Of a stretch of DNA of 64,000 nt, positions 19,496 to 62,367 are shown piece by piece. Origin of the DNA: Verrucomicrobiota bacterium (GTDB lineage: Bacteria > Verrucomicrobiota > Kiritimatiellia > CAJWTS01); NCBI GenBank assembly GCA_027623315.1, contig JAQBYD010000008.1:1-64000 (forward strand), written 5' to 3'. A program made the position numbers and the translations under genes. The notes beneath the pieces were generated by a model. That model ran no database searches. It saw only the letters and a list, made by a program, of their open reading frames with translations, and was not told the origin of the DNA. Within the stretch, counting starts at the first letter, position 1. Each line of letters begins with the position of its first letter.

Positions 19496-19496
19496 G

Positions 19497-19931: not shown

Positions 19932-19982
19932 GCGTGAACGGAGCCGTGAGTAACAGGTATTCAGTTGGATGGTTCGCACGGG

Positions 19983-20025: not shown

Positions 20026-20046
20026 TAATACGTCTTCCACCGTTCA

Positions 20047-23748: not shown

Positions 23749-23808
23749 CGTTTGTCGTTGCCCGCGTCAGCAGGCCACGGCAAACGGGCGAAAACGAAAA
23801 AGAGAAGG

Positions 23809-26142: not shown

Positions 26143-26152
26143 CAGGGAGATC

Positions 26153-34483: not shown

Positions 34484-35172
34484 TCAGAACCATACTCAAG
34501 CCTCTGCGTCAGCCGGTCCTCCAGGTTGTGGCGGTGACGAGCCGCTGCTGGCTGCTCGGTGAAGCGGCCGCGCTTCGCGGTGTGCGTTGGCTGGGCCGGT
34601 CGATCCATCGCCTGCTTTGCGTCCTCGGGCCCTTGGTCGAGCGCGCTGTGATGGCCGCGACGCCGCATGTCGTGTCGCTGGCCGGCGCCGTCGCGTCTCG
34701 TTCCGGTCGTCTTTGGGCCCGCATGTCGCCGTACGCCGTGAAGTTCTGGATCTTTGCGGCGCCGGTGCGTACCTGGATCGTCCGCGCATGCAGCTGGTTA
34801 ACCAACCTCTGGATCCAGGTTGGCGACATGAACTACCGTGAGAGCGCCGTCTTTCAGGAGCATCTGGACCCCGACCATGTGGTGGGCCTGATTCGTACGC
34901 GAACGCGTGTGGATGTGGGGATGTGGTTTCGAAAGGGCCGCGTCTGGGCCTGCATGCAGCCCGCCGAACTGGTGCTCCTGGCGCAGGGAAAGAGACCGTG
35001 GGTGCAACACATCGCGCACGAGTCCTTGCGCGAGAGCCGCTACAACCATGTGACCGGTGAAGTCGCCCTGGCACCGGGGCAGAACCTGCCGCTTTCGTCG
35101 CTTCGTGTGAAGCCCTTGGAAGGAATCGAGTTGTTAAAGAGTATAGGAACAAAGGAGATACAACATGCTTGA
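34480..35172 (+). CDS. Hypothetical protein with amphipathic/hydrophobic N-terminal half
   Basis: ORF MIRTILKPLRQPVLQVVAVTSRCWLLGEA..., ATGA overlap with the giant gene and overlap with exbB downstream. Confidence 0.6.
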   Translation: MIRTILKPLRQPVLQVVAVTSRCWLLGEAAALRGVRWLGRSIHRLLCVLGPLVERAVMAATPHVVSLAGAVASRSGRLWARMSPYAVKFWIFAAPVRTWIVRACSWLTNLWIQVGDMNYRESAVFQEHLDPDHVVGLIRTRTRVDVGMWFRKGRVWACMQPAELVLLAQGKRPWVQHIAHESLRESRYNHVTGEVALAPGQNLPLSSLRVKPLEGIELLKSIGTKEIQHA

Positions 35173-35809
35173 GACGATCATAAAAGGTCGCATCATGATG
35201 ATCCCGCTGCTTGCGTGCAGCATCGTGGCACTCGCGGTTGTCGCCGACCGTATCTGGGCCTTCTACCTGAACAGCAAGCTGGATACGCGGGCGTTGCGCG
35301 CGCAGTTGATGCGTCATCTGCGGCGCGGGGAAGTCAGTGACGCCGCCCTGCTCTGCATTTCGACCCCCGGTCCCGTCGCGGCGGTTTTGCTCGCCGGGCT
35401 ACAGTCCTATGGTCGGCTGGACAAGAAGACGCCCGAGAACCTGCGCCTGAGCGTCGGGGAGGCCATGGAGGATCATGCACTGCATAGCACCAGTGCCGTG
35501 GAAAAACATCTTTGGCTCCTGTCGATGATTGGTAACGCTGCCCCGCTACTCGGCATGTCGGGAACGGTGCTCGGAATGATCAAGTCCTTTGAGAAACTAG
35601 GGGAGTCGTCGGACCCCCAGGTGATCGGTGTCGGAATCTCTGAAGCGCTGATTACGACAGCCGCCGGACTCCTGATCGCGCTCGCGGCGGTTATTCCATT
35701 CAGTTTCTTTTCGTCGCGCGCGGAAGAAGTCGAACTCGAGATCGAAGAAGCCTCCTCTGAGATGCTGGAGTTTCTCGTGACCGGCGCTGGCAAAGATCCC
35801 AGTGCGTAG
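35165..35809 (+). CDS. MotA/TolQ/ExbB proton channel family protein (module 2)
   Basis: LWLLSMIGNAAPLLGMSGTVLGMIKSFEKLG...GISEALITTAAGLLIALAAVIPFSFF. Confidence 0.93.
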   Translation: MLETIIKGRIMMIPLLACSIVALAVVADRIWAFYLNSKLDTRALRAQLMRHLRRGEVSDAALLCISTPGPVAAVLLAGLQSYGRLDKKTPENLRLSVGEAMEDHALHSTSAVEKHLWLLSMIGNAAPLLGMSGTVLGMIKSFEKLGESSDPQVIGVGISEALITTAAGLLIALAAVIPFSFFSSRAEEVELEIEEASSEMLEFLVTGAGKDPSA

Positions 35810-35888
35810 TCGTTCGCGGATGTCGCATCGAAATGGAGCCCAAAGGGCCCCGCTTTCCTGACACCGCAATTGAGCAGGAGTCCTCACC

Positions 35889-36305
35889 ATGGCCAAGAAA
35901 CAGAAAAGGCAAAAGAAGGAAGCTCCCGAGATACCTGTCAACTCCTTTGCCGATGTGGCGTTTCTGCTGATCATATTCTTCATCATTGCCACGACCATGG
36001 AACGCATGACCGGCGCCATGACCGACATGCCGACTGGCGAACAGAACGAGCAGGCGCAGGATAAGACGCCCACGGTCCAGTTGCATGACCAGTCGATCAC
36101 GTTCCAGGATCAACGCGTCACAATCCCCGAGCTACGCGCGGAGCTCGCCAAGCTGAATCTTCACGAGCGCGAAGGGGAGGACAAAATCATCGCCTTCGAG
36201 GCCACTGGTGAAGTGGAGTACCAGGACTATTTCGACGCAATGTGCACGATCAGCGCAGCCGGTGGAATTATTGCGCTAATCAAGGAAGACAAGAGCGGAA
36301 GCTAA
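35889..36305 (+). CDS. ExbD/TolR family protein (module 2, copy a)
   Basis: IPVNSFADVAFLLIIFFIIATTMERMTGAMTDMP, conserved TM Asp. Confidence 0.9.
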   Translation: MAKKQKRQKKEAPEIPVNSFADVAFLLIIFFIIATTMERMTGAMTDMPTGEQNEQAQDKTPTVQLHDQSITFQDQRVTIPELRAELAKLNLHEREGEDKIIAFEATGEVEYQDYFDAMCTISAAGGIIALIKEDKSGS

Positions 36306-36307
36306 CC

Positions 36308-36763
36308 GTGAGAAAGAGACGACGCCGCAAACAAATTCTGGTGCCCGTGGCGGGCATGGGTGATATCGCATTTCTGCTGATCATCTTCTTTCTCGTCGCG
36401 AGCCGCCTGGCGCAGGACAAGGCGATCGATCGCCCGACGTCGCTGGACGCCGCGAAGCTGCAGGAGACCCGCGTCAGCGTCCAGATTGACGCGGATGGGA
36501 TCGCGTACGTCAACGGTCGGCGGATGGAGAGCGAGAAAGAGATCAAGGCCGAGGTGAAAGATATGCTCGACCGTCGCGTGGCCACGAACGCGCTGCAGAG
36601 AACCGTAATGTTCAAGTGTGACAAGTCGGTCAAGAAAAGGATCTTTGAGCCCGTCATCGAAGCGATTGCAGAAGCAGGAGGACTGCTCGCCGCGGTTGGC
36701 GAACAGGGCGCCCCGAAGGAGGAGTCCAGGGATAAATCGACTAACCAGGAGGATACGAAATGA
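36308..36763 (+). CDS. ExbD/TolR family protein (module 2, copy b)
   Basis: GTG start; RKRRRRKQILVPVAGMGDIAFLLIIFFLVASRLAQDKAIDRP, conserved TM Asp. Confidence 0.88.
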   Translation: MRKRRRRKQILVPVAGMGDIAFLLIIFFLVASRLAQDKAIDRPTSLDAAKLQETRVSVQIDADGIAYVNGRRMESEKEIKAEVKDMLDRRVATNALQRTVMFKCDKSVKKRIFEPVIEAIAEAGGLLAAVGEQGAPKEESRDKSTNQEDTK

Positions 36764-37215
36764 ATGATGAATCCACACCCCGTTCCGACGAGGACATAGA
36801 AAATATCGCTCCGCAGAAGCTGCTGGTGAACTTCACCGAGAATCGCACGTTGAAGTGCCTTGGACTTGCGGCGGCCATTCACGTGTTGGTTCTATGCGGA
36901 TCATCCCCCCGCTATATCTACGAAGCGATCAACCCCGAGGCCAAGAAGGTGCGCCTGGCGCGCGAGGATAGCGACAAGTTGAAAGACATGAACGAGAAGA
37001 TTGATCGCGAGTCGCCGGCCGCGAAGCTGGCAAGAGAGAAGAGGGAGGCCGAGAAGAGTAAGGCCGACGCCGCATCAACGGATGGGGAAGCGGACACGAT
37101 GGAAAAGCGCATGCAGACCGACGCCTACAAAGAGACGGTTGAAAAGGCCGCCGCTGACGAAATTCCGAGCGAGCCGGAAGATATCGGTATTTCACTCGAA
37201 GACACCGAGCTCTAA
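36760..37215 (+). CDS. Small single-TM protein with TonB-like N-terminal topology and charged periplasmic tail
   Basis: TM LKCLGLAAAIHVLVLCGSSPRYIY with an intramembrane His, then a Lys/Glu/Ala-rich tail; immediately follows the exbD pair. Confidence 0.6.
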   Translation: MNDESTPRSDEDIENIAPQKLLVNFTENRTLKCLGLAAAIHVLVLCGSSPRYIYEAINPEAKKVRLAREDSDKLKDMNEKIDRESPAAKLAREKREAEKSKADAASTDGEADTMEKRMQTDAYKETVEKAAADEIPSEPEDIGISLEDTEL

Positions 37216-37239
37216 AGCCAACACCGATCTTCCATTCGC

Positions 37240-38820
37240 GTGAAGCTGTCAACCTACCATCGTATCATACCGACCCTGCACTGCCTTCCGTTGGGCATCT
37301 GCGGGGCCGTGCTGGCTTGGGTCGCGGTCCGGTTGCGCTTCTATCATATCGATCTGCTGGCCGAGCATTTCGAGCTGGCGGCGATCTTCGACCCGCTGCA
37401 CACGCCTGTCGGGTTTCTATCGTTGATGGTGATCAGTGCGATCGTCGCGCTGATGGCACTGCTTGCCGCGTTTTCCGGACTACTCTCCAGGACCGCGCGC
37501 TCGCTTGGGCTGATTCGCAAGGCGAATGCGGCCCTTCTCGCCTACTTTATCTTCTACGCCTGGGCGGTAATCTCAACAACCAGTCGCATTGAGGATGCGG
37601 TTCGCTTTGGCGAATCCGCCCCGAACGCGGTCGACCTTTTCAACTGGCGGTTGGCGTATCTCTGGCTTCCTTCCTTCGTCGCCGCTGCGGTCGGGTGGCT
37701 GCATCTGAACGCATGGCGTCGCGCCGTCATGAATTTCTACACGGCCGAAGCGGAGGACGCACCCGCTCGTGGCGATCTGATCGTGGAGAACATACGCACG
37801 CACGGAACCGACCCGGAATATCGGAAGTCGAAGATCGGAAGCGTTTGGGCGCACATCCTGATCATCGTGATCATTCCGTGGTTGCTCAACCTGTTTGGCT
37901 GCGTGACGCCGTACCGTGTTCCGTTCGGCGGCGGCGAACCGGCGGTGATGCAGGTCGTGCAGTTCAAGAAGAAGCCGAAGAAGAAGCGCGAATACATTCT
38001 CTCGATGGACACCGCGATTCTCTTCAACCTGCCGGATCTCGATGAGTCCAAGATCTTTCAGGAGGTCGAGATCTTGACGCGATTGACCTACGAGGCCAAT
38101 GCCAAGGCCGCGCACGGTAAGCTCGGTTCGAAAACGGCCGACCAGGCGGGTTTCTGGGATGGGTTTCTCGACGGCGAGATGCGCTTCATACGGCTTGAAT
38201 ATAGCGGCGCCGACTGGGACGACGGGATGGATTCGACCACCCAGGCGGATATGAACTTCCTGCTGAAGTTTCGTGAAGTCAGTGGCGGGATGAAGACCGC
38301 ACTACGTGGCGAATCCCACCGCGTCAGCCTCCTCAAAAAGTATCCCAAGGGACAGGCGCCGCCGTTTGTCTTTATGACGGGCTCCGGCTCCATCAACATG
38401 GGCGGGGGCGATATGAAGGTCCTGCGAGAACACCTGCGCGGCGGAGGCCTGCTCTTCGCCGATTGTGGAAGTCCGGCATGGGACGGTGCCTTTCGTAGTT
38501 TCGTCAGCCGACTTTTTCCGGGTAAGCAGCTGAGTGTCATCGCCGACGATGACCCGATCTTTCAGCTCCCGTTCGCGTTTCCGAACGGTGCGCCGCCGCT
38601 GTGGCATCACGGCGGCCATCGCGCGCTCGGCATCAAGGAGGGCGGCCGCTGGTTGGTCTTCTATCATCCGGGCGATGTGAACGATGCGTGGAAGACCGGA
38701 CACTCCGGGATCGACTCGGATCTCGCGGAGGGTGCCTTCCAGATGGGCATCAATATCGTCTACTATTCGACCATGCAATACCTCCAAAAAACACGGAAAT
38801 ACCGTAAGGGCAAGCGATGA
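37240..38820 (+). CDS. Multi-TM protein with C-terminal DUF4159 domain
   Basis: Several TMs, then FIRLEYSGADWDDGMDST...PPFVFMTGSGSINMGGGDMKVLREHLRGGGLLFADCGSP...EGAFQMGINIVYY; homologous to the C-terminus of the 52.6-58.2 kb protein. Confidence 0.8.
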   Translation: MKLSTYHRIIPTLHCLPLGICGAVLAWVAVRLRFYHIDLLAEHFELAAIFDPLHTPVGFLSLMVISAIVALMALLAAFSGLLSRTARSLGLIRKANAALLAYFIFYAWAVISTTSRIEDAVRFGESAPNAVDLFNWRLAYLWLPSFVAAAVGWLHLNAWRRAVMNFYTAEAEDAPARGDLIVENIRTHGTDPEYRKSKIGSVWAHILIIVIIPWLLNLFGCVTPYRVPFGGGEPAVMQVVQFKKKPKKKREYILSMDTAILFNLPDLDESKIFQEVEILTRLTYEANAKAAHGKLGSKTADQAGFWDGFLDGEMRFIRLEYSGADWDDGMDSTTQADMNFLLKFREVSGGMKTALRGESHRVSLLKKYPKGQAPPFVFMTGSGSINMGGGDMKVLREHLRGGGLLFADCGSPAWDGAFRSFVSRLFPGKQLSVIADDDPIFQLPFAFPNGAPPLWHHGGHRALGIKEGGRWLVFYHPGDVNDAWKTGHSGIDSDLAEGAFQMGINIVYYSTMQYLQKTRKYRKGKR

Positions 38821-47461: not shown

Positions 47462-47640
47462 ATCTTAGAAGAGGATTGTGAGAATCATCGGAACTTCCAC
47501 AGCTACGTCATGTCTCAATGGCTTCCGGCGGAGCCGCTGGCGTGAGGCCCTCCTCCCCGTCCACGAAATCCGCGGTCCAGATGCGATGTCGCGCGTAGGA
47601 CAGCGCGCCCCGGTTGCGGAGAACCCGAAAGGTAGGTAGC

Positions 47641-49796
47641 ATGACGTCCCTGATGAGGTTCTGGTGCATTGCAGTCGTAGGCCTGATCTGCGCTGCCCCC
47701 GCCACGGCCGGCGGCAGCGCAGGGCTGACCAATCTCCGCTTTAAAGCCATCAGCTCGACAAGCAATGGAATCGAGATTCTGGTCGGCTATTCAAATGGTG
47801 AAACCAATCGCTTCGATCTTATCGGCGGCACTAACCTTGCGGCCGCCGGCTGGAGCCTGATCTCGGAAACCAACGCGATCGGGGCCACGAACTGCATTCT
47901 GCTTCTGGACACCAACGTTCTCGAGAACGTTCGATATTACGAAGCATGGGACGCCGTGGCGGACTCGGACTGGGATACGCTCGCGGACGGACGTGAATTG
48001 CGAATCTACGGGACCCTGCCGTCGCACACGGATTCGGACGCCGACGGAATGGGCGACGGCTGGGAGATAGCCTACGGATTCGATCCGGTCGTCTCGAACA
48101 CCGGCACGGGCGATGGCGACACGGACGGCCTGATCGATCGTGACGAGGCGCGCTATGGGACCGATCCGGGTAACGGCGATTCCGACGGGGATGGAACGGA
48201 CGACGGCGACGAAGTATCCCAGGGCAGTGACCCGGCCGACGATGCGGATACCGGTTCGAATTCCCGTGCAAGGACGCTCGTCGTGACCACCGACCAGTCG
48301 ACGAGTGCCGATGAACTCAGGTTCAACCTGCATCGCACGGGCACTCCGTTCTCCACGACGTGGCCCGTGCCTTCCCAGGCGGGCGCCCAGGGCAATCGCA
48401 GCTTCGTGGTCGTCCAGGGGAGACACTACCTGCTCAAGTTGCTTGCCGAGGCCGCGTTGGATCCGCCGCCGATGAGCCTGGCATGGAATATCAATCCCGG
48501 TTCCGATGTTCTGGTCGATGAGAGCACAAGCACGATCAATGTACCGACCGTCAGCGACATTGTGAGTGGGATCGTTACGACCCACCAGGTGGATGTCGAG
48601 GTCGATGTAGATCTGCAAGGATTCGCCGCGTTTCGTGGCGCCGGGAATACCATGGTTCCGGAGTCCGAGGAGGCCGCTCCGGCGGGTGTGCTGGTGACGC
48701 CCAGCAACGACGGATTGTCGCCGTACCTTTCTAACCCGCGTGAGGCGAAGATAATCGCCAAAGGGTTCAGTGACCTTGATCTCGAGGGGGCGGCGACGCG
48801 ATGCCTGCGCTTCAGTAGTCCGTCGAAAATTGAGCTCGTGGGCGGTGATTACGGATCGCCGACCCAACCGCCGTCCGAACTCGACCTGGGTACGATATCG
48901 GGAGTGCAGTTCACCTCTGATGTTGAATTCGAGGTCCACATGAACAGCGGAAATTGGTCTGCCGGTAATTATGTTGATGTTGAGTACGTCGTGAAAGATG
49001 CGCAGGGCAATGACCGCGGTTCCGACACCGTAAGGCTGCTCGGCCCGGTCGTCATGGCCATTGGCGACTCCGTCACGATGGGGTTTCAGCGGGATATCGC
49101 CCATGTACACCACACGCCGCCAATCGGGAGCGGGTGGTCCTCTAGTCAGAGCTGGTCGACCTATCCCGGGATCAACGACTGGAACGCATTGACGCCGCCA
49201 TGGAACAACGCGAACAATCGTCTGTCCGACAGTTTCCAAGGCTTTCGTGGTTACCTGGACCTGGTTCTTCCGGTTGGGACTGGACAGGAGAGAGCGTCAA
49301 CGGACACGGTCCAGCCCACATGGGTTACAACGGCGGGAAGATATTCGATCCCCTTGGTGGCATTGACATCTATGACAGGTATCCACGGTCCGCCGTGCAG
49401 GTGAACCCGTGCTATGCGATCATCATCTATTTGGCGGGATATAATGATGTGATCAGCGGAAGTTCAGCTTCCGACCTGTGGTCGTCTTGGAGTGCGCAGA
49501 TGAACGTGTTCGTCTCCGAGCGTTCGGGGCGCGGTAAGACACTCATCGTGGGCGTCCAGCTTGGTAAGATGGGGACTTGGTACAGCGGTTACTCCGCGAC
49601 CAAGCAAGCCCAGTTGACCGGGCTAAACAACTCGATCGAGAACTACAGCGTATCCGCCGCGAACGTGAGGTATGCGGCGTCGGACACCGAAAACGTGGGG
49701 CATAATGCCGGCGACGACGGATTGCACTATTTCGCGAACGAGAATATCAACTTCGCGGCGGGCATCCTCGATGCCATCGTGGCGGGGCTGCAGTGA
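47641..49796 (+). pseudogene. Secreted SGNH hydrolase with thrombospondin-type-3-like Ca-binding repeats; coding frame broken near 49270
   Basis: Frame 1 carries DSDADGMGDGWEIAYGFDP...DSDGDGTDDGDE and AIGDSVTMGFQ, running to YLDLVLPVG; another frame then carries WDWTGESVNGHGPAHMGYNGGKIFDPLGG...YLAGYNDV...NAGDDGLHYFANENINFAAGILDAI. Confidence 0.8.
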
Positions 49797-49882
49797 TTGC
49801 GCAGATCCAAAGCTGCACGGATTGACGTTTTATGCGAGAGGCGATCCCATCGAGATCTGAGCTCCGGAACCATCGAAACGCA

Positions 49883-49901
49883 AAGCGGCAAGATGCCGCT
49901 T
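49883..49901. repeat. Stem-loop (8-bp perfect stem)
   Basis: aagcggca-aga-tgccgctt. Confidence 0.6.
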
Positions 49902-49925
49902 CCAGCTTCTTCGACCAAAAAGGTG

Positions 49926-49947
49926 AAGCGGCGTCCCGCCGCTTTTT
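49926..49947 (+). terminator. Rho-independent-like terminator
   Basis: aagcggcg-tcc-cgccgctt followed by a T5 run. Confidence 0.7.
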
Positions 49948-49954
49948 GTCGTGC

Positions 49955-51826
49955 TTGCGTCAGGGGAGGATCACGCCGCTGGTGCTGTCTTTTTGGATTG
50001 CCGTGTCCGCCGCCACCGCCGATCTCCAACGCGATTGCTTCCTCGTCGGGAAAGGCGATCGCCTCGGCGTCATCGGCAGTGACGGTGCCGTCCGGACTCC
50101 CCTGAAGTATCGCGCCGCCAGCCGGTGGGGCGATACAGGATATCTCTGGGTCTCCGGATATGGAGATCCGCCGCTCGACGGCAACTTCATCAACGCGAAA
50201 GGATTCGAAGTCTCCACGCGACCGGTCGGATTGGAGATAAACGCCCTGGCGTTCGAACTGCCCGAGTTCCGAAACGGGAGGGCTGCCGTTCGGACGGGCT
50301 CCGCGTCGCACGGGTTCCTGGGCCCCGACGGTAAGATTCTGTATGCGACGTCCGCTGTTGGGGCGGCGATGCATCATCTGGACCCGTGGATGGTCATTCG
50401 CGAAGGGGACGACATGGGGTTTGCTACGGTCGCGGAGGGCGTCGTCATCGAGCCGCAGTTTGACGAGGCCTTCCCCTTCGGCGGTGATCTAGCGCCCGTG
50501 CGCGAAGGACCCCGTTGGGGGCTCGTCCGCCGGGACGGCTCCTATGCCGTCCGTTCGATGTACGACGAGATAAGACTGCTTACGCGGCGTGGCGACCGGC
50601 CTGTCTTCTGGGCGGTGCGTCTGGAGGATCGCTGGGGAATCGTGGACTCCGGCGGCAACGTGCCCGTGCCTCCGCGCTTTGATTCCATTCGACACGCCGA
50701 CCACGGTGTCGCGACCGTGACCGTCGATGACAAGTTCGGCGTCATCGAGATCGCGAGCAATCAGATGCTTGCACCCCCGCACTACGAGAGTGCGTTGCCT
50801 CTGGATAGGCAGGGGGTCTGGTTGCAGCGGGAGGGCCGCTGGGGGCGAATCGGGATCGACGGTCGCGAGCAGTGTCCATTCAACGTGGAGCGCGTATCGA
50901 GACTTGGAGAGACGCACTGGCGCATCTGGCGTCACGGACGATGCGGCGTGGTATCGGAGTCGGGCGAAGAGATCGTGGAGACGATCTATTCGGACATCTC
51001 AAGCTTATCGACGAACCTGGCGCGCGTACGGGTCGGGCAGGAGTTCGGTCTGTTCGACTTGCGTGCCCGCAAGCTCCTGCTGAAGCCGGAGTATCAAGGT
51101 GTGCGCGTCTATTCACAGTTCCGCGAGAGCATCGCACTGGTGAAACTGGTGGGGCGGTGGGGTGCCGTGGATCTTGCATCGGGTGCGCCCGTAATCCCGA
51201 TAGAGTCGGACGCGATCGATCCATGGTGGCCGTCGCTGCTGATTGCATCGAAGGACGGTTCGACGGTGCTCTATTCCTACACCGGCGAGACGGTGTTGAG
51301 CCCGGACCTGGAGGCAGATCTGATCGAGCTGCCTCAGGACTTCGTGCAAGGTTACGGACGGATTCAGTCGAAGGGTAAAGCGGGTCTGATCACCTCCCGC
51401 GGTCGAATCGCCATTCCCTGTCGCTACGAGGATGTCGGTGTGGTCGCGGATGGCCTCGTCCCAGCGGAGATGGACGGCAGGTGGGGCTACCTGGATCTGG
51501 ACGGTACATGGCGCATCAAGCCCGTGTATGGGGAAGCGCATCCCTTCTCAGGCGGTGTCGCGGCCGCGCGTAAGGACGGGCGCGTCGGCTACATCGATCA
51601 AGACGGCGTGACCGTGATTCCTTTCCGCTACGACGACGGACGCTGCACGTACAATGGCTTGTTCCCCGTCGCGCTTCAGGATCAGAAATCCAAAGCGATG
51701 CTTTGGGGCTTGTTGAATCAGAAATCAGAGGTCGTTCTGCCGATCGAATACGAAGCCCTTGAGTGGCCTCACCCGGGCCGCCAACTCACAACGATCCACG
51801 GCCGCCAGACCTGGCGCAGCCTGTAG
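49955..51826 (+). CDS. WG-repeat-containing protein, exported
   Basis: Repeated WG/GVI motifs (PRWGLVRRDGSYAVRSMYDEIRLL, DRWGIVDSGGNVPVPPRFDSI, GRWGYLDLDGTWRIKPVYGEAHPFSGGVAAARKDGRVGYIDQDG); start uncertain, TTG 49955 gives the signal-like LRQGRITPLVLSFWIAVSAATAD. Confidence 0.8.
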   Translation: MRQGRITPLVLSFWIAVSAATADLQRDCFLVGKGDRLGVIGSDGAVRTPLKYRAASRWGDTGYLWVSGYGDPPLDGNFINAKGFEVSTRPVGLEINALAFELPEFRNGRAAVRTGSASHGFLGPDGKILYATSAVGAAMHHLDPWMVIREGDDMGFATVAEGVVIEPQFDEAFPFGGDLAPVREGPRWGLVRRDGSYAVRSMYDEIRLLTRRGDRPVFWAVRLEDRWGIVDSGGNVPVPPRFDSIRHADHGVATVTVDDKFGVIEIASNQMLAPPHYESALPLDRQGVWLQREGRWGRIGIDGREQCPFNVERVSRLGETHWRIWRHGRCGVVSESGEEIVETIYSDISSLSTNLARVRVGQEFGLFDLRARKLLLKPEYQGVRVYSQFRESIALVKLVGRWGAVDLASGAPVIPIESDAIDPWWPSLLIASKDGSTVLYSYTGETVLSPDLEADLIELPQDFVQGYGRIQSKGKAGLITSRGRIAIPCRYEDVGVVADGLVPAEMDGRWGYLDLDGTWRIKPVYGEAHPFSGGVAAARKDGRVGYIDQDGVTVIPFRYDDGRCTYNGLFPVALQDQKSKAMLWGLLNQKSEVVLPIEYEALEWPHPGRQLTTIHGRQTWRSL

Positions 51827-52611: not shown

Positions 52612-55600
52612 TTACGGCGCAGCTACCGGTGGCTGGACGATACGCACGTTCTGGATGGTGACCGAACCGGATGGCGATTGGGGGTAGATGATGAAGTGCC
52701 AGTCGTGAATGCGCGTCGCTTCGCCTAACCCCAGGTTGTACTGCCATTCGGATACCTCAGACTTGAATGTCTTCGCGCGCAGGTCGAAGACGATCCCGCT
52801 GTTCTTGCCCGGACGGATGTACGCCGGGGCGCTTTCAACGTACGCTCCGGTCTCGCCCACGGCGAAGGCGAGCGCCAGGCGGCAACCGCCTGGCATCTGG
52901 CTGTCCACGTCGAGCAGAAGAGCCCGGTTGTTGGAGAGGGTGATATCGACCGCGGCCAGGGCAACGACCTTGCTGCGCCGGGTGATCGTCTTCACCTCAG
53001 GCGAACCAAACGAGATTGAGAGTGAATTGTCGGGCCCCGCGGTCACGACGGCGGGTAACGTGTCACCCCAATCATCCGGTGCTGCCCACGACGGGGCTGT
53101 CGTCATCAGTTCGAACGGAAGCGGCGGGAGTGTGGACAGTGACGCTCGCAGATCATCGTGATCGCCGTGACTCTGTACCTTGTCCTGCATCGTGGCGGTA
53201 GGCGGTTGACCCTTGTTGAGAAAGTGCATCACGATGTTAATCCCCATGCGAATCGACCCCTCCTGCATATCGTGCGGAGAGAGGTCGCTCAGTGATGGCA
53301 TCAATGGATGTGTGTTGGGATTGATCTCGAGGCCATCGCCGTAGTCATTGCGCGTGTAGACGATGGCCAGCCGATCTCCGATGTAGAGGCCTTCGAGATA
53401 GTCGAGGCGATACTTGTCGCCCGGTGGGACAGCGTATCCCTTGAACCCTCGAGTCAGGTCGTACGGTCCCTTGAAAAGGTTGTGCGTCATGGGGATGCGC
53501 TTCCACTTCAGATCCGGCAGGACACGCGCGAGCTCACGGCGTACCGCGTGATCAAAGCGATCATCGCTGATATCCGTCGAGTCATTGATCCACATGTATC
53601 CGCCGCCGGCTAGATACTTCGAGAGTTGTTTCACCTCGTCTTCGGACATGCGAAAGGGATCGTGCCCCGTCATGAATATGAAGGGCAGTTCGCCGATGCG
53701 CTCGTCGTCGAGTCCGATCGTCGTGGTCCCGATCGGGAGCAGGCTGCCCGTTCTCTGCTCCATCTGGTATGCAAGATTAAGCATCGCCGTGTCGTCGCAG
53801 TCCCAGTCTCCGTCGTATTTCAGCAAGGGAAGTGTGCCGCCGGTTGCGGCGGTGTCGATCAGACCCTTGCGGGCCCCGAGCGCAACTTTCGCCGGAGGCA
53901 GGATTTCGTCGGGCGTGACGCTCGCTACGGATAGCTCCGGGGCCGGGGGTTGCCACGGAGCGGGCTGGTAAGGCGCCAGAAGGTCCGGCCGCTGGCGAGC
54001 CCTCATCTCCGGAGGCAGTGTGGCGCCGAGCGGCGCCAGCATCTCGCCCATAAAGTCGGGAATCTCCCTCGGCGGTGGTGCGGGTTCTGTGCGTGCGACG
54101 ACCGTCTCGATATTGATTAGTGCCGTCTGCTTGGGTGCGGGAGCGGTGGGACCGGAGCTGCGTAGCGTCGCCGTGGGCCGTGGCCCTTCAACGCTGGGTG
54201 TGCTTGGGGCAAGGGGACGCGTCGAATCGGTGGCGCGGGGCGAGACATGCTTAATTCTCCGGGGGACGCCTTGCATGACGCGAGGCGTGCTTGAAGCCGG
54301 CGCCACGACGGTGCGGCGTGGTCTCGTGGCCGGCGTCGCGGGCGTTTGCACGTCGCGGACACTGACGATAGAGGGGCGAGCGGTCGGAACGGACCGTTTC
54401 GCCTCAGGCTGTATCGCAGCCGTCGTCGACACGGGCGCAGAAACCGATACCTTGGGATGCGAGGATCGCACCTCCGCAGATGTAGTCGGTATCGCACGGG
54501 CGATCTGTACCCGCGCCGGCTCGCTTCGCATGGCGGAGTTCGTGACCGTATTCGGAGCCGTGGCGTCGGCGGACCTGCGCACGACCGGTTGGCTCGGTGA
54601 GGCGACGTCCGTCGTCTCGGACGCTTCTCTCCGAACCGGTTTCGTGGTGCGCCGCGGCGTGGCGCGCGGCGCCGTTACGGGTGCGGGCGTCCAGGATGGT
54701 TCAGCCAGGGTCTGTGATTCGTCTACCGCTGCAGGTTCGATGCGTTCATGCACCGGGGAGGATGCACGCTGAGCAGCGCTTGCCGCCGTGATCCGGGGTG
54801 ACGCCTGTTTTTTGCGATCGACGCTCTCCGGCACCGCCGTGGTAATCTGCAGGACGTGATCCGACGGAGTTCTCTTGACGGACTTGCGCTTCTCTTGTGT
54901 TAGCACGGGATCCATGTTAACGGGCGCGATCTCCGGAGAAACGTGCTCAACCGGCTGAGACACGTCGGCCATGTCCGGTTGCTGCTCGTCCGTGCGGGGA
55001 GTGGCGGCATTCGGGGTGGCCAACGGTTCGACCGGTTCGACATCACGACGATGCTTGCGCTCGACTTGCTCCGGCTCCTCGGTCTCAACCGTCATGACGT
55101 GCACCAGGCTCCGTTCAACCTTCTGTTCTACCGGTATGGCGTCGGCGTCGGGGGAGGGTGCTTCGGGAGTCGTTGGCGATACGTCCTGGGGAGTCGCGAT
55201 CTCCTTGGGCAAGATGGGCTCGATCTTGGCGTGCTGGTGCGCCATCTGCTCTTCGGGGGTCTCGGGTTCCTGCTCTGCATGCTTACGCTCGACCGGTGCC
55301 GTCGGTTCGGGCTCAACCGTCATGACTTGCGCCAGGCTGCGCTCAACCGGTTGTTCAATGGGTACCGCATCGGCATCGGGGGCCGGTGCTTCGAGGGTTA
55401 CGGGCGTCACCTCCTGTGGTGTAACCGCTTCCTCCGGCGTCATCGTTTCAACGCGGGCATGCTCCTGCTCGAGTTCACGAATCTCTACTTCGGGCGTCTC
55501 CTCGACCGTCTTGCGCTCCACGCTCTCCAGCGGTGTGTCCAGATCCACCGTTTCTTGCTCGGGCCGCTGCACCTCGTGGTCTTCCTCCGGGAGGGGCTCC

Positions 55601-58197
55601 GGATCCGCAATCTCCGCCAGCATGTCCTCTTCCGTTTCAACCTCACGCGAACTGTCCGGATCTTCCGGCTTCGTTTCGAGTTCGGCTTTGTCGATCTCCG
55701 ATTCGGACGGATCCGTAGCGTTGTCGGTGATCTCCGGAGTTTCCGGGGCGATCTGCTCCTCGACCACGCTGTCGGCACCGGTAAGTCGAATCACGCTGGC
55801 GACGGGCGCTTGCTCTTCATTCCGATCGGGATCGGGCAGCACGATGAACAGCGCGATGAGATGGACCAGGCCCGACGCACACAGAAACGCCATGCGGCGA
55901 TTGGCGCGCAGGTGGCTCAGGATGAGGGCGAGGGCGATGATCAGCACCAGCAGCAGAGGGCGCGCCCACGGCGCGGAGAGCCAACGCACGACGATTGGGG
56001 CCCGCACGACCTCTCCCGGCGGAAGACCGGTGTCGGCGATGTAGCGGAGCGTCACGGTCGCGATGCCGGGTCCCTCGAGGACCACGACGTCGTCGATGAG
56101 CCGCGGCATTTCGCTAAATGGCACGCGCAGCACCAGGTGCACGAGATTCGTCGCGGAGCTTGCCGCGAGCGACGATGGGAGAATCCGGAGCCCGGCGATC
56201 TTGCTGCGCACGGTCAGAGGGGAGCGACCGTCGGGCGAGAGGGCGATCGCAATCCGGTTGCTGATCACGACCGCGCTCTCGCGTCGGCCAAATTCAGCGT
56301 CGGTCATGACGGTTCGGATTTCCGGGGCGGCAACGCGTCCCGTGACCGGAATCATCCATTCGGAGCCTCCCGTTCGAACGCGAACCGTATTCGAGACCGA
56401 CTGGCCCGCCGTCGAGTCGCCGGCGGAGACGATCATGCTGAGTAGCGAGCTCTGGTTGGGCAGAATCGTGCCCTCGGTCGCGTAATCGATGCCGTCGTGA
56501 CGCGAGGGTCCGGCAAGGTCATGCAGGGCTCTATCGGGAAGCGGGGTGTTGATCAGGACGCTGACCGTGGCGGTCACGGTGCTTCCCGGATACAGATCCG
56601 TGACGCTGAACTCCGCCGGCTTGGCCCAGAAGATTGGAGAATCCGTGGCGATCGCACCTGGGTTCCGTACGGCTGCGAGGCTCACGTCGCGTGCGGTGGA
56701 CTGATCTTGTTGCACCGCGGCACGATGGATGGGCGCGCCGGCATGGCGTGCCATGTCGCCGCCGGTTCGTGAAAACGTGATGTTGGCCCCGCGCACGAAG
56801 CGGTGACCGTCGACGGTTCCCGTGGCACGTATCTCCGCTCGATAGACACCTTCGCTCTCCGCCGCGGCGTGACCGAGATAGAGTCCCGCCAGGTGTCCTG
56901 CCTGGATTAGAGATGTGGACGTTGTGCCGTCCGGATTGGCGATGCGACACTGAAGCGAGACGTTCCGGCAAAGCTCCGGCCTCGAGAGGACGTTGGCCCA
57001 GTGCAGCGCGAGCCCGGCCGGTCCGGCGACAACCGGTTGGACGGTATAGATCTCCAGGGATGAGGTCGCGCTGATCTGATAGACAATGCGCCCCTTACCG
57101 CTCATCTGCAGCGTATGTTCACCCGGCGGCAGATGATCAAGCGGGATCGAGACCGATCCGGAATCGCGCGTCATCGCATGCTCGGTGCCGGCGATGCGAA
57201 TCGTGATGTGTCCGTGCACTACCGAGAACTCGATCTGTGCGTTGCGCATGAACGGGTCGATGATCAATGGTTCCGAGTGCTCGCCCAGTAACTCCCGCGA
57301 CGCTTTCAGAAGCGTTGTGGGGCGGTCGATCAGTTGAAAAATCTGTGAAAAAATGCCTCCCAACTCCGCGCTGTCCGGAGCGGAGAAGAAGCGTCCGCCG
57401 GTATCGGTGGCGATTGCACCCAGTAGACGGGCATCCGCCTCGGCGGAGAGTCCGACCGCGTAGACCGGTGCGTTGAGTCCCTTCAGTTTCAGATGGGTGT
57501 CGTCGTACTGAATACGCGGAAAACCATCCGACAGGAACAGGACCGCCTTCTCCCCCTGACGCGTTTCCAGGATTCGCAATGCATCGCGAAACGGCCGGTC
57601 GAAGTTCGTGGCACCGCCGGGAGCGAGCTGTGCAAGGTACGGCGCCAGGTCGTTAACATCCGCCGGAGCGGTGGGGGCCAGCAGGATATTGGAGCGTCTT
57701 GAGAAACCGATGAGTGAGACCGAACGGAATCGACCGCTGTTCCGAGCCAGCGTGAAGAATCGCTGAACCGCCTCGTAGCGCAGGTTGAGAGGGTCGTTTC
57801 TCTTCATGCTGCCGGAGGTGTCAATCGCGATCACGACATCGAGCGAGGGGCCGGACTCGACCCGGTGGCGGCCCAGGGGCATGCTCCCTTGTGGACCGCC
57901 CTCCGTTGTGGTGACGAGTTTCAGGTCGCGCACCCCCGTGATTTCTCGCGACAAGCGTGCAACGGCCCAGTGGTTTGTGCCCTGCGTCACCATCTCGCAA
58001 GACGAGGTGGTGACGAGGTCGCCGTCGACGCTGCGCGAAACGAGCGCCACGGGCTGCACCGGATCAAGGGCAGGAACTTGACGTATGACCCACTCGTCGT
58101 CCGCCGGCAGGACGCCGGCGTAGGTGGCCAGCAGGACGCGCAGCGCGGCCGCGCGCATTGGCGTCATAGCGGGCTTATGGCTGTGAATTCGCAGCAT
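52612..58197 (-). CDS. 1861-aa fusion: VWA domain, TM region with TonB-like SxxxH helix, Pro/Glu-rich linker, DUF4159, C-terminal beta region (module 3)
   Basis: VVIAIDTSGSMKRNDP (MIDAS); FLCASGLVHLIALFIVLPDP; long P/E/V linker with an internal 76-aa duplication; YDGDWDCDDTAML...LPFIFMTGHDPFRMSEDEVKQLSKYLAGGGYMWINDST. Confidence 0.88.
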   Translation of the reverse strand: MLRIHSHKPAMTPMRAAALRVLLATYAGVLPADDEWVIRQVPALDPVQPVALVSRSVDGDLVTTSSCEMVTQGTNHWAVARLSREITGVRDLKLVTTTEGGPQGSMPLGRHRVESGPSLDVVIAIDTSGSMKRNDPLNLRYEAVQRFFTLARNSGRFRSVSLIGFSRRSNILLAPTAPADVNDLAPYLAQLAPGGATNFDRPFRDALRILETRQGEKAVLFLSDGFPRIQYDDTHLKLKGLNAPVYAVGLSAEADARLLGAIATDTGGRFFSAPDSAELGGIFSQIFQLIDRPTTLLKASRELLGEHSEPLIIDPFMRNAQIEFSVVHGHITIRIAGTEHAMTRDSGSVSIPLDHLPPGEHTLQMSGKGRIVYQISATSSLEIYTVQPVVAGPAGLALHWANVLSRPELCRNVSLQCRIANPDGTTSTSLIQAGHLAGLYLGHAAAESEGVYRAEIRATGTVDGHRFVRGANITFSRTGGDMARHAGAPIHRAAVQQDQSTARDVSLAAVRNPGAIATDSPIFWAKPAEFSVTDLYPGSTVTATVSVLINTPLPDRALHDLAGPSRHDGIDYATEGTILPNQSSLLSMIVSAGDSTAGQSVSNTVRVRTGGSEWMIPVTGRVAAPEIRTVMTDAEFGRRESAVVISNRIAIALSPDGRSPLTVRSKIAGLRILPSSLAASSATNLVHLVLRVPFSEMPRLIDDVVVLEGPGIATVTLRYIADTGLPPGEVVRAPIVVRWLSAPWARPLLLVLIIALALILSHLRANRRMAFLCASGLVHLIALFIVLPDPDRNEEQAPVASVIRLTGADSVVEEQIAPETPEITDNATDPSESEIDKAELETKPEDPDSSREVETEEDMLAEIADPEPLPEEDHEVQRPEQETVDLDTPLESVERKTVEETPEVEIRELEQEHARVETMTPEEAVTPQEVTPVTLEAPAPDADAVPIEQPVERSLAQVMTVEPEPTAPVERKHAEQEPETPEEQMAHQHAKIEPILPKEIATPQDVSPTTPEAPSPDADAIPVEQKVERSLVHVMTVETEEPEQVERKHRRDVEPVEPLATPNAATPRTDEQQPDMADVSQPVEHVSPEIAPVNMDPVLTQEKRKSVKRTPSDHVLQITTAVPESVDRKKQASPRITAASAAQRASSPVHERIEPAAVDESQTLAEPSWTPAPVTAPRATPRRTTKPVRREASETTDVASPSQPVVRRSADATAPNTVTNSAMRSEPARVQIARAIPTTSAEVRSSHPKVSVSAPVSTTAAIQPEAKRSVPTARPSIVSVRDVQTPATPATRPRRTVVAPASSTPRVMQGVPRRIKHVSPRATDSTRPLAPSTPSVEGPRPTATLRSSGPTAPAPKQTALINIETVVARTEPAPPPREIPDFMGEMLAPLGATLPPEMRARQRPDLLAPYQPAPWQPPAPELSVASVTPDEILPPAKVALGARKGLIDTAATGGTLPLLKYDGDWDCDDTAMLNLAYQMEQRTGSLLPIGTTTIGLDDERIGELPFIFMTGHDPFRMSEDEVKQLSKYLAGGGYMWINDSTDISDDRFDHAVRRELARVLPDLKWKRIPMTHNLFKGPYDLTRGFKGYAVPPGDKYRLDYLEGLYIGDRLAIVYTRNDYGDGLEINPNTHPLMPSLSDLSPHDMQEGSIRMGINIVMHFLNKGQPPTATMQDKVQSHGDHDDLRASLSTLPPLPFELMTTAPSWAAPDDWGDTLPAVVTAGPDNSLSISFGSPEVKTITRRSKVVALAAVDITLSNNRALLLDVDSQMPGGCRLALAFAVGETGAYVESAPAYIRPGKNSGIVFDLRAKTFKSEVSEWQYNLGLGEATRIHDWHFIIYPQSPSGSVTIQNVRIVQPPVAAP
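55030..55485 (-). repeat. In-frame tandem duplication of 228 bp (76 aa) in the linker
   Basis: HARVETMTPEEAVTPQEVTPVTLEAPAPDADAVPIEQPVERSLAQVMTVE.. and HAKIEPILPKEIATPQDVSPTTPEAPSPDADAIPVEQKVERSLVHVMTVE..; corresponding codons exactly 228 bp apart. Confidence 0.85.
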
Positions 58198-58218: not shown

Positions 58219-58641
58219 TTACTCCCGCTTCTCCACGATCGATTGGGTCAGGCTGAGATCGGAGAGGCCGTGCTTCTTGCACATGTTGATCACGGTCATG
58301 ATTCGTCCGTGATTCGCGCTCGAGTCGCCGCGGATCTCGACGTACGACGAATCCGCCGCACGGTAGTTCTGTAGTTCATGGTCCAGTTGCTCGAGTGACA
58401 GGATGGCGTTGTTGACGACCAGGATCCCGCCTTGCCGGACATTGATGACCATGCGGCTGTTGTCGCGCGTGATGATGGTGCCTTCTGATCCTTCGGGCAA
58501 CTTGACCTCGACATCGCGTTCTTCGGAGTAAAACGTCGTCGCGACCAGAAAGAAGATGATCAGGATGAAAATAATGTCGATCAGCGGGGTCTGCGGGACC
58601 TCGAAAGACTCCTCGCTCTGCCAGCGACTGCGGTCGGACAT
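58219..58641 (-). CDS. ExbD/TolR family protein (module 3)
   Basis: FEVPQTPLIDIIFILIIFFLVATTFYSEERDVEVKLP. Confidence 0.93.
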   Translation of the reverse strand: MSDRSRWQSEESFEVPQTPLIDIIFILIIFFLVATTFYSEERDVEVKLPEGSEGTIITRDNSRMVINVRQGGILVVNNAILSLEQLDHELQNYRAADSSYVEIRGDSSANHGRIMTVINMCKKHGLSDLSLTQSIVEKRE

Positions 58642-58684: not shown

Positions 58685-59422
58685 CTAATGGTCAGGCGGA
58701 ATGATCAGGTTCTGCTTGGCCAGGATCTCGCAACGCCGTATGAGGTTGTCGATTCTGCCCGTGAAGTAATGATAGGAGAGGAGCATCGGTATCGCCACGA
58801 TCAGACCGAAGCAGGTCGTCAGCAGCGCTTTGGAGATTCCGCCCGCGAGGGCGCCGGGATCGCCCAACGCGCCCTGTTCGGCGACGACGCTGAAGGCCTC
58901 GATAATGCCGGCGACGGTGCCCAGGAGGCCGAGTAACGGCGCCGTGTTGGCGATAATCCCGATGGGTCTCGTCGATCGCTTCAATTGCCAGATCGACTCA
59001 TCCACGATTTCCTCGATGGCTGTCGCGATCTGATCGTGGGATTCGCGTCGCCAGCGATAACCAGCCGCCAGGATAAGGTTCACGCGGGATGTCTCATCGC
59101 TGTCCACGATTTGTTTGATCTCCTCGGAAGACATTCCATCGACGAGGCGCTTCTCCGTCTCGGCGGGCAGTATGACGGATCTGCGCGTGACGTATGAGAC
59201 CTCGAAGATGAATCCGAGTCCAACCGCGGATGCCAGTAGGATGACGTACATGACGCTTCCGCCCCGCTGAAGCGTGTCCCACGCGCTGCCGCTGAGCATT
59301 CCCGAGGCGTCGTCCGTCTCACCGGCGAACGCGACGTACGCGATCGTGCACAGCGCTGCGACGACCAGGTAGAGGATGGGTTGCTGCAATCCGGCACGAC
59401 GGGTTCTGCGTGAGCGTGACAT
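58685..59422 (-). CDS. MotA/TolQ/ExbB proton channel family protein (module 3)
   Basis: PIGIIANTAPLLGLLGTVAGIIEAFSVVAEQGALGDPGALAGGISKALLTTCFGLIVAIPMLLSYHYF. Confidence 0.93.
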   Translation of the reverse strand: MSRSRRTRRAGLQQPILYLVVAALCTIAYVAFAGETDDASGMLSGSAWDTLQRGGSVMYVILLASAVGLGFIFEVSYVTRRSVILPAETEKRLVDGMSSEEIKQIVDSDETSRVNLILAAGYRWRRESHDQIATAIEEIVDESIWQLKRSTRPIGIIANTAPLLGLLGTVAGIIEAFSVVAEQGALGDPGALAGGISKALLTTCFGLIVAIPMLLSYHYFTGRIDNLIRRCEILAKQNLIIPPDH

Positions 59423-62367
59423 TAGATTCCGGTTTCGTCGAGAGCCTGTGCAGCCTTCGTGGTCCAATCCGAGCCCGCGTAGTTATTCTGCAGTTTCTTC
59501 AAGTAGATTGCGGCGCGACGCGACGCCTTGCCCTCCGCCCGCACGAAAGCCTCAACGGCATGGTACAGCGCCTTGGGCGACAAGTCGCCGTAGTCGTACA
59601 GCAGTTCGACGCGGAGGAACTGCTTGGCGGCCTCGACGTAGTTCTTGTCCTCGTAGTACGTCGTCGCGATGTTGAACTGGGCGCGCGCGGCCTCGATGGT
59701 GTCGGTGCGCTTCATCGTGTCCTGGAAGTGGCCGCGTGCTTCCTCGAAGATGCGAACCGCTTTCTTTGCCAGTCCAAGTCGGAACGAGACCAGGAAGCGG
59801 CGCTCGGAGTCGGGGAATCGTGTCTCGAGGCGTTCGCATACAGCGATGACCTCCTGCCACTTGGCCGCTTGTACGAGCGCCTCGCTATACTGATGCAGAA
59901 GTTCTTCACCGGCGTCATCACCTTCACTCTCGACGCGGGCGGACAGGATAGACATCGCGCTGTCGTGATCGCCGGATTTCTGATGCAGTTCTGCGGCGCG
60001 CAGCGCGGCGTCGAGGGTGTATCGACCCTTCGGGAAACGCTCGAGCAGGGATGCAAAGTGCGCGGCGCCGGCCTTCGCGTTGTCGCGGTGCCTTTCGCAC
60101 CATGCGAGCATGTAGAGTGCGCGTTCGCCCCGTTCGGATTTCAGGTCGGCGAGCCGGGCAAAGAAGGGTTGAGCCGCGGCGTAGTCTTCGCGTAGGTACG
60201 CGATCTCGCCCCGCTGCAGTATGGAATCCGCGGCCATCTCTGATACGGCGGGGTCGTCTCCGAGCCCGGCAAAGATGGCGTCCGCTTCCTTCATCTTCTT
60301 CTGCTTCAGAAGGGACCACGCGAGCCCGTACTGCACCGTGGCGAGCAGTTCCGGCGCGGGTTTCGTGGCCAGGGCGCGCTCGTAGGCATCCACGGCGGAG
60401 TCCAGCACGCCCTGATCGAAATAGTGCTCGGCGAGTTTTACGAGGACTTGTGAACCAAACTGTCCGTCCGGGAAACGCTCTGGGTATGCCTTCAGGTGGG
60501 GCACGGCCTTGGCGGGCGGGTACAGAGAGCCAAGGCGATAATAGGCTTTGTCGATGAACTCGTCTTTTGCCGTCGATGTAATACGCTGCTCGTACGCGGC
60601 CGTGGCTTGCTCGGGCGTACCGGCTTCTTCGAAGGCGCGCCCGGTCATGTATGCCGCTTCAGACGCGTACTCGCTTTCACGTTTTGCGAGGTTCGCGAAA
60701 TGCTTCGCGGCCGCTTCAAAGTGCTTGCGGTCGAAAGCAACCCAACCGGCGCGATACAGCACGCGAGGTTGCGGCTCGTCGCTCTTGAGTAATTCGGCGA
60801 GATGCTTTTCACTACGGTCGAGTTCCCCAAGCCGATAGGCATACTCGCCAAGCGCAAACAAAATGTGCTCCCGCAGCTCAGCATCCATGCCGTCCTTCAA
60901 GCATCCTTCGAGAGTGCTGACCGCGGTCTTGAGATCGTCCTGCTGGGCGAGTTGGATGCCGAGCGCGTGGCAGGCACGTGCGCTGAACTCGCCAGTCGGA
61001 AAGGTCTCGAGTTGGCTCCTGAATGCCTTGATCGCGTCCACGGGTCGGCCTGCGGCGGCCAGCGCCTGCGCGTAGCTGTAGTGGGCCGTCTCGCGCTGGC
61101 GGGCCGGTAGGGCATCCACGTTCATGACCGCTTCGAGCGACGGGATCGCCTCCTTGTAGTTCTTTAGTTCGAATTGGGATACGCCGAGCCAGAACCGTGC
61201 GTCCAGCGCTTCGGCGCTCTTGGGGTATCCTTTCAGAAGTCTCTCGAGGGCGGCGGCGGCGGCGGCGTACTGCTTGAGTTCATAGCGGGCGATACCGGCG
61301 TTATAGAGAGCGGATGGAGCCATCGCCGATGCCGCATGCGCGTCCGCGAACGCAAGGAATGTCTTGGCCGCCGATTCGCGGTCACCGCTGCGGTATCGCG
61401 TCCATGCGAGGCGAAGCTTGGCTTCCTCGCCCGATCCGGCGTCGGCACTGAGAGGAGTGAGAAGCGTCTCGGCTTTCTTGTACTGCTTCGTCGCCGTCAG
61501 CGCGTCGGAGAGCAGTAGCGTCGCCTTCGTGCGCTCCGGATAATCCGGATGTTTCTCAATCAATTCGGTCAATGGGGCGATCGCCGCGGCGTGTTGCGCA
61601 CGCTCGATTTGTGTCCACCCCAGCGAGAAAAGTGCGTCGGCGCGATGCTTGGATTCGGGAAACTGCTCGAGGAATGCGGCGTAGTGCGGAACGGCCTGAT
61701 CGTATTTCTTCAATTGCAGCAGGCACTCGCCCGCTCCGACGTAGGCTTCCTCCTGGATCTCCTTGCGCGTTGATTTTGCGGCGGTCGTAAACGCGGCGAG
61801 GGCGGGGGCGTAGTTCTTTAGTTCGAGATGGCATCGGCCCAGGTTGTAGCCGGCAAGTTCGGCGTCGGGTAGCTTGGGGTGCTGCTTCAGGGCGACGCTG
61901 TACGCGGCTGCGGCTTCCTTCAATTGCCCGAGACGGAAGCGGCATTCCGCGGCACGGTAATGAGCCGTGCCTGCCGAGGCCTCGGTCGCGTGGTCCTTGA
62001 TGTAGATCGCGTACTCCTCCAGCGCCGACTCGTAGTCCTTCTGGATGAAGAGTCCCTCGGCAAAGTTGAACTGGTCTTCGGCCGGCCCGCCGCGCAAGGA
62101 GGTCGCAACCATCACGATGGCGAGCGTCAGACTCGCGAGAGTCCGATAGCATCCACCCCGAAGGGCGGGGCGATCGCGGCGGATCACCGGTGCGAAGATG
62201 TCTGTTGTGGGCCTGTTTTTCACAAATGTCGGCGTCTGACGCGGCGGAGTCTTTCGACTGGCGCTGACGGCTGACGGATAAGCAGATTTCGTGCTGGGCA
62301 TCGGGACTGTAGGCGGAAAAGAGGCAGAATAGATGCGAATTATGAGAGGGCGCGGGCGCGATGTCAA
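59422..62367 (-). CDS. TPR protein, exported (module 3)
   Basis: RTLASLTLAIVMVATSLRGGPAEDQFNFAEGLFIQKDYESALEEYAIYIKDH and many TPRs; stop overlaps the exbB start; start may be 62301. Confidence 0.85.
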   Translation of the reverse strand: MTSRPRPLIIRIYSASFPPTVPMPSTKSAYPSAVSASRKTPPRQTPTFVKNRPTTDIFAPVIRRDRPALRGGCYRTLASLTLAIVMVATSLRGGPAEDQFNFAEGLFIQKDYESALEEYAIYIKDHATEASAGTAHYRAAECRFRLGQLKEAAAAYSVALKQHPKLPDAELAGYNLGRCHLELKNYAPALAAFTTAAKSTRKEIQEEAYVGAGECLLQLKKYDQAVPHYAAFLEQFPESKHRADALFSLGWTQIERAQHAAAIAPLTELIEKHPDYPERTKATLLLSDALTATKQYKKAETLLTPLSADAGSGEEAKLRLAWTRYRSGDRESAAKTFLAFADAHAASAMAPSALYNAGIARYELKQYAAAAAALERLLKGYPKSAEALDARFWLGVSQFELKNYKEAIPSLEAVMNVDALPARQRETAHYSYAQALAAAGRPVDAIKAFRSQLETFPTGEFSARACHALGIQLAQQDDLKTAVSTLEGCLKDGMDAELREHILFALGEYAYRLGELDRSEKHLAELLKSDEPQPRVLYRAGWVAFDRKHFEAAAKHFANLAKRESEYASEAAYMTGRAFEEAGTPEQATAAYEQRITSTAKDEFIDKAYYRLGSLYPPAKAVPHLKAYPERFPDGQFGSQVLVKLAEHYFDQGVLDSAVDAYERALATKPAPELLATVQYGLAWSLLKQKKMKEADAIFAGLGDDPAVSEMAADSILQRGEIAYLREDYAAAQPFFARLADLKSERGERALYMLAWCERHRDNAKAGAAHFASLLERFPKGRYTLDAALRAAELHQKSGDHDSAMSILSARVESEGDDAGEELLHQYSEALVQAAKWQEVIAVCERLETRFPDSERRFLVSFRLGLAKKAVRIFEEARGHFQDTMKRTDTIEAARAQFNIATTYYEDKNYVEAAKQFLRVELLYDYGDLSPKALYHAVEAFVRAEGKASRRAAIYLKKLQNNYAGSDWTTKAAQALDETGI

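Follow-up and report, generated by a model that had tools for sequence, protein, structure and literature searches.

The window, by which the whole analysed stretch of 64,000 nucleotides is meant, carries on its reverse strand an apparent operon with the gene order TPR, exbB, exbD and a large fusion gene. The fusion gene (52612-58197, (-) strand, as are all features of this operon given below) is one open reading frame, of which the translation is free of internal stops and yields 1861 amino acids. On the basis of the reading frame, Pfam matches and a set of six orthologues, its product can be divided into a VWA domain, a transmembrane (TM) hairpin with an SxxxH motif, a Pro/Glu-rich linker, a DUF4159 domain and a C-terminal beta-sandwich. 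A plasmid search for the same architecture found none.

At the N-terminus, a putative Sec signal peptide of about residues 12-36 (58090-58164) is proposed from hydropathy alone; residues 14-32 are hydrophobic with a mean hydropathy of 1.23, which is weak, and the counterparts in G001 and G378 are clearer. If this prediction is correct, the VWA domain that follows would be exported. The latter (aa 120-284; 57346-57840; Pfam PF00092, E 5e-12) possesses a complete MIDAS, with DTSGS at 126-130 and the downstream Thr and Asp in GATNFD and LSDG, and these residues (DxSxS, Thr, Asp) are intact in 6/6 orthologues. The DUF4159 domain (aa 1457-1660; 53218-53829) matches Pfam PF13709 with E 2.8e-35 and a score of 122 bits against a cut-off of 25.9, and its AF2 model resembles crystal structure 4i66, a DUF4159 protein, with a TMt of 0.83. 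Pfam thus bears out the preliminary description of this DNA, which had named both a MIDAS VWA domain and a DUF4159 domain. That description had overlooked the beta-sandwich at the C-terminus (about aa 1717-1861; 52615-53049), which is CBM-like according to Foldseek (probability 1.0 and TMt 0.4-0.53 with CBM11, CBM30, CBM4 and CBM16). The same sandwich is present, on its own, in a lipoprotein-like protein of G019 (L102:549-2279), where it is followed by what appear by eye to be WG-type repeats, and a similar-looking repeat protein is encoded in the window at 49832-51826. Nearby, the overlapping open reading frames 47614-49404 and 49200-49796 are candidates for a single SGNH-type hydrolase gene broken by a frameshift.

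The gap between exbD and the fusion gene is 21 bp, in agreement with the earlier statement that the latter lies directly downstream of exbB-exbD. The exbD/tolR-like gene (58219-58641; Pfam ExbD, E 7e-22) encodes an intramembrane Asp in PLIDIIFILIIFFLVATTF, and its product also matches the NCBIfam TolR model (E 4e-15, under the model's cut-off). The gene for the exbB/tolQ-like proton channel is located at 58685-59467 (Pfam MotA_ExbB, E 1e-27). The first gene of the operon (59422-62367) encodes a TPR protein of 981 amino acids, recognized by Pfam TPR matches, which is a candidate partner of the fusion; a long open reading frame with a similar start is found at this position in G001, G149 and, judged by position, G378. 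This gene was missed at first reading, and so was another ExbBD/DUF4159 operon of the window (35165-38820).

For comparison of the motor proteins we used E. coli TonB, TolA and ExbB sequences of which the TM stretches agree with those given in PMC12215075, a cryo-EM study in which Ser16 and His20 of TonB touch Ser34 and Trp38 of ExbB, linked to Pro190. When aligned with E. coli ExbB, the ExbB of the operon retains the Ser34 and Pro190 equivalents and has Leu instead of Trp38. The Ser34 equivalent is present in 8/8 compared ExbBs with an SxxxH partner, and among the ExbBs compared it was lost solely in the one encoded at 18503 in the window, of which the partner has no SxxxH. The latter ExbB is part of a third ExbBD locus (18503-21744), in which the pair precedes a protein that combines a single TM helix, free of SxxxH, with an acidic linker and a domain resembling squalene-hopene cyclase (Pfam SQHop_cyclase_C, E 3e-7). 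Two further ExbBD loci of the same genome, L226 and L229, have neighbours that match SQHop_cyclase_C weakly, below the cut-off, and that possibly represent another type of head. In total, the genome contains ten ExbB-family genes and one TonB_C protein.

Helix hairpin, linker and orthologues

The AF2 model of the N-terminal part of the fusion is poor (pLDDT 51), and only its VWA and hairpin parts were used. Within it, the hairpin stands out with a local pLDDT of about 75-86. According to AF2 and hydropathy, it consists of a helix at aa 745-762, a short Arg-rich loop and a second helix at aa 767-786 (55840-55965). The two hydrophobic helices that were described earlier, the second with SGLVH, are thus recovered, and the second helix carries the SxxxH motif as S775-GLV-H779.

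Searches in the class and the phylum gave five further fusions, so that together with the window protein six orthologues from four families are available. Lengths are 1829 aa (G001), 1596 aa (G087), 2306 aa (G149) and 1971 aa (G378); the G001 orthologue consists of two halves on two contigs overlapping by 20 aa, and that of G383 is apparently split into two overlapping open reading frames, of which the parts alone were used. The aligned N-terminal (VWA) parts are about 32-41% identical to the window protein, and exbB and exbD precede the fusion gene in all six cases. When the second helices are aligned on the motif (ASGLVHLIALFIVLP, ASLLLHVLVLFFALP, ASLVMHILVFLLCLD, VSTAVHVLLFMLTMD, VSLLLHGILAILLMD and ASLVMHVLVFLLSLD), the sole positions of the approximately 22-residue helix that are invariant in 6/6 sequences are the Ser and the His at +4, and the rest of the helix varies. 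Loss of Ser or His in the orthologues, which would have refuted the earlier reading, is not seen. A tree of DUF4159 domains places the six fusions together in a single clade (SH-aLRT 95), which sits in an open group along with type B, the single-helix form.

A hydrophobic segment resembling a signal peptide precedes the VWA domain in all six orthologues and is weakest in the window protein. Such a segment would make the VWA domain periplasmic, with helix 1 running out-to-in and helix 2 in-to-out, and DUF4159 would again be periplasmic. The loop between the helices is positively charged in most orthologues, which is compatible with an N-in, C-out orientation of helix 2. Based on hydropathy and the AF2 hairpin, the DUF4159 domain should therefore be located in the periplasm; a cytoplasmic DUF4159, which would have refuted the preliminary description, is not what is predicted.

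The linker (aa 789-1457; 53827-55833) is 669 aa long and contains 14.6% Pro and 12% Glu, so it is indeed long and P/E-rich, as had been stated. Its first half is acidic and its fourth and fifth sixths are basic, and it resembles itself when shifted by about 76 aa. Linker lengths in three orthologues are 669, 643 and 394 aa; the longest TonB linker reported is 245 (PMC12204202). Just behind helix 2, the sequence PVASVIRLT (aa 798-806; 55780-55806) is, by position and beta-like alternation, a candidate for a D-box or motor-box strand, the element of TonB that is captured by ExbD (motif as defined in PMC10907165). The strand is clearer in the orthologues, with the consensus SP[TQS]LA[VI]x[VIL]. 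Four of the six have a Pro at +28 relative to the motif Ser and behind it a beta-like strand (e.g. P-T-L-A-V-T-I), at the same distance from Ser as the D-box of E. coli TonB (P+28, I-S-V-T-M-V). In the window protein and in G001 the D-box-like strand is shifted, weaker and imperfect; in the former it lies about 5 residues nearer to the helix.

The SxxxH motif among DUF4159 proteins of PVC bacteria

DUF4159 genes encoding TM helices and having an exbD upstream were collected from Verrucomicrobiota, Kiritimatiellota, Lentisphaerota and Planctomycetota. In this linked set, the last helix before DUF4159 has SxxxH in 35/61 proteins and AxxxH in 3/61, and lacks His in 23/61; after clustering at 60% identity, SxxxH is found in 27/41. 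The motif occurs in 6/382 background helices (<2%), at least three of which belong to TonB or vWA-type transducers of the genome studied here. It was found neither in the other helices of the linked proteins (0/234) nor in exported DUF4159 proteins (0/42). The latter number is 49 less seven proteins (L174-L180), which have a single-helix DUF4159 architecture with SFxxH after an Arg-rich stretch in 7/7 and an exbB downstream. The commonest linked form has four extra helices ahead of the SxxxH helix and DUF4159.

Three of the 23 His-less proteins are single-helix proteins in which Tyr replaces His, and most of the remaining ones group in a single region of the DUF4159 tree, with some exceptions that lie apart. 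Where short companion proteins were found beside a DUF4159 helix without His, 16/18 of them carry a full SxxxH. The reciprocity between DUF4159 helix and companion gives a Fisher p of 2e-4 on all proteins and of 0.09 on 60% clusters, and no significance was obtained with independent pairs on the tree. The impression that the companion carries the motif in place of a His-less DUF4159 helix is thus no more than suggestive. These companions (about 135-200 aa) are encoded between exbD and the DUF4159 gene in L059-type operons, for example at 36760-37215 in the window and at L231:10303-10719. Their helix has AxxxH or SxxxH followed by a near-invariant Ser, and the S form tends to occur where the His of the DUF4159 helix is lost.

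The second operon of the window (34417-38820) is of this kind. It comprises exbB at 35165, two exbD genes at 35889 and 36242, a gene for a short protein with an AAAIH helix at 36760 and a gene for a four-TM, SVWAH and DUF4159 protein at 37240-38820, and is located downstream of long open reading frames with TPR-like sequence (23752-34483).

Possible function and alternative explanations

We consider it probable (about 0.74) that the fusion is an ExbBD-driven force transducer of the TonB/TolA kind, in which DUF4159 serves as a non-TonB head. ExbB and ExbD of the operon would together make up an inner-membrane motor powered by protons, on which helix 2 may dock via Ser775 and His779 to ExbB, while ExbD would capture the strand just past this helix as it does the TonB D-box. 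The long Pro/Glu-rich linker could then pass the force on to a head made up of DUF4159 and the beta-sandwich at the C-terminus. What this head would act on can be guessed at: peptidoglycan or an outer-membrane target, possibly with the TPR protein as a partner. The VWA domain would be kept in the periplasm across the hairpin and could, as a further guess, anchor or regulate the complex. Its MIDAS is intact, and the metal-dependent docking that the preliminary description proposed for it is likewise a guess. As ligands of head and VWA domain we would guess at peptidoglycan, glycans of the outer membrane and the TPR protein. In favour of a transducer we count the invariance of Ser and His in 6/6 orthologues, the position of all six genes behind exbB and exbD, the rarity of SxxxH elsewhere, the retained Ser34 equivalent, the strand at D-box distance in four orthologues and the SxxxH companions of His-less helices; counted against it are the lack of TonB_C, the outcome of the profile comparison with TonB after masking (see below), the imperfect and shifted D-box match of the window protein, the 669-aa linker, the replacement of Trp38, the lack of significance of the companion pattern on the tree and the 23/61 linked proteins without His.

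The motif and the gene order might be coincidental and the fusion a BatA-like VWA membrane protein that is unrelated to ExbBD coupling. VWA membrane proteins without an assigned role are common, and exported DUF4159 proteins exist that have no ExbBD nearby. However, a motif with a background frequency below 2% would by chance have to provide the sole invariant residues of the helix, with the adjacency of exbB-exbD kept in 6/6 orthologues, and coincidence is therefore highly improbable. A scaffold is a more serious alternative, even if an unlikely one. The SxxxH helix would then do no more than recruit the protein to ExbB/ExbD, and the fusion would serve as scaffold or regulator, either gating the motor or keeping VWA, DUF4159 and the TPR protein assembled. 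Large periplasmic parts flank the hairpin on both sides, as in a scaffold, and the linkers of 669, 643 and 394 aa far exceed what is needed for crossing the periplasm, so that tension would be hard to build. On the other hand, the orthologues retain a strand at D-box distance, of which the TonB equivalent is the proposed pulling handle (PMC10907165), and the linker is Pro-rich and acidic-then-basic as in E. coli TonB.

The third alternative starts from the motor-coupled, vWA-headed transducers that were proposed for PVC bacteria by Williams-Jones et al. 2025 (PMC12204202), the genes of which are found behind a TPR gene, tolQ and two tolR genes. If the fusion were of this type, VWA would be its working head and DUF4159 an accessory. 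PVC bacteria do have vWA transducers beside TPR and tolQR genes (PMC12204202), and two loci of the general layout (SxxxH helix, linker, VWA-like domain) are present in the same genome. L225:8517-9935 encodes 472 aa with SLVLH, next to two exbD genes, with a weak VWA_2 match below the cut-off; L228:5116-6876 encodes 586 aa with SCALH and a VWA_3 match above the cut-off. With these two in the same genome, the window fusion represents a different arrangement from the published one. Its VWA precedes the hairpin, on the side on which no pull would act, and it is DUF4159 that lies at the far end of the linker; the operon has a single exbD and not a pair; and no VWA match was obtained for other DUF4159 proteins that are linked to ExbBD and carry an SxxxH or AxxxH helix. 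This makes VWA an improbable working head. The idea that the published vWA heads are really DUF4159 domains was also considered and dropped, as separate genes with the published layout, as described, match VWA models here.

If DUF4159 is indeed the head of a transducer, the docking signature of TonB ties this uncharacterised domain to ExbB/ExbD and gives it a testable role, and it joins the docking helix to heads beyond TonB_C and the vWA of 2025. This suggests that these bacteria drive a cell-envelope process with an altered TonB-type machine, and that PVC bacteria, of which the envelope is poorly known, may power several separate periplasmic machines. A wider proposal, which we consider somewhat doubtful, is that a broad class of PMF-driven envelope machines in PVC bacteria uses DUF4159 as its working head. 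The class would comprise three or more architectures, all built on one SxxxH helix that docks on ExbB, and the window protein would be its double-ended form, in which VWA serves as a metal-dependent adhesion domain across the motor. In the literature searched, which covered few subscription papers and no preprints, DUF4159 was never named, nor was a published name found for the four-TM proteins with a fifth helix and DUF4159; a transducer with a DUF4159 head thus appears to be undescribed so far.

Comparison with known systems

The fusion shares with TonB and TolA an inner-membrane SxxxH helix, neighbours homologous to ExbB/TolQ and ExbD/TolR, a putative strand behind the helix, which is imperfect in the window protein, a Pro-rich linker and a C-terminal head in the periplasm, the latter by prediction. 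The charge pattern of the linker, acidic and then basic, is like that of E. coli TonB, whereas its length is about six times the median of TonB linkers. Instead of the TonB_C or TolA C-terminal domain, the head consists of DUF4159 and the CBM-like sandwich, and unlike TonB and TolA the fusion has an exported VWA part and a first helix ahead of the SxxxH helix. No TonB family domain was matched in Pfam or NCBIfam. The second half of the SHLS motif (S-x3-H-x6-L-x3-S) is missing in the window protein, which has V for L and P for the last Ser; TonB itself shows lower conservation at these two positions (PMC12215075). In hhalign, the helix region matches TonB with E 4e-4 when Ser and His are included, in sets that were selected for the motif; with both residues masked E becomes 0.02, with controls at 0.03-0.08. 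Since the remaining similarity is at control level, the resemblance to TonB rests on motif, position and context, and we do not claim homology of the fusion to TonB. With no TonB_C, no second half of SHLS and no similarity left after masking, the fusion is, as judged from sequence, outside the TonB family. Of the candidate non-canonical TonB that was proposed in the preliminary description, the TonB-like transducer with a non-TonB end remains probable, given the invariant Ser and His and the predicted topology, and the family membership is not supported.

With the vWA transducers the fusion has in common the PVC hosts, the SxxxH helix, a disordered linker, a non-TonB head and the TPR and tolQ/tolR-like genes; as in the published loci, TPR (59422-62367) and tolQ-like (58685-59467) genes lie upstream. 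In the vWA transducers the vWA head comes after the linker and a pair of tolR genes is present, whereas in the fusion VWA comes before the helix, DUF4159 is the head and there is one exbD. The four-TM proteins with a fifth helix and DUF4159 (37240-38820, L231 and about 50 more loci) are similar to the fusion in that they mostly have SxxxH before DUF4159 and adjoining exbB/exbD genes. They differ by four extra TM helices that replace VWA and the first TM helix, by a shorter linker, and usually by two exbD genes and a short companion with an AxxxH or SxxxH helix. Finally, DUF4159 proteins with a signal peptide (e.g. L012 and L013) and 4i66 share domain and fold with the fusion (TMt 0.83), but the signal-peptide proteins are exported, often have tandem DUF4159 domains and occur without an SxxxH helix or ExbBD neighbours.
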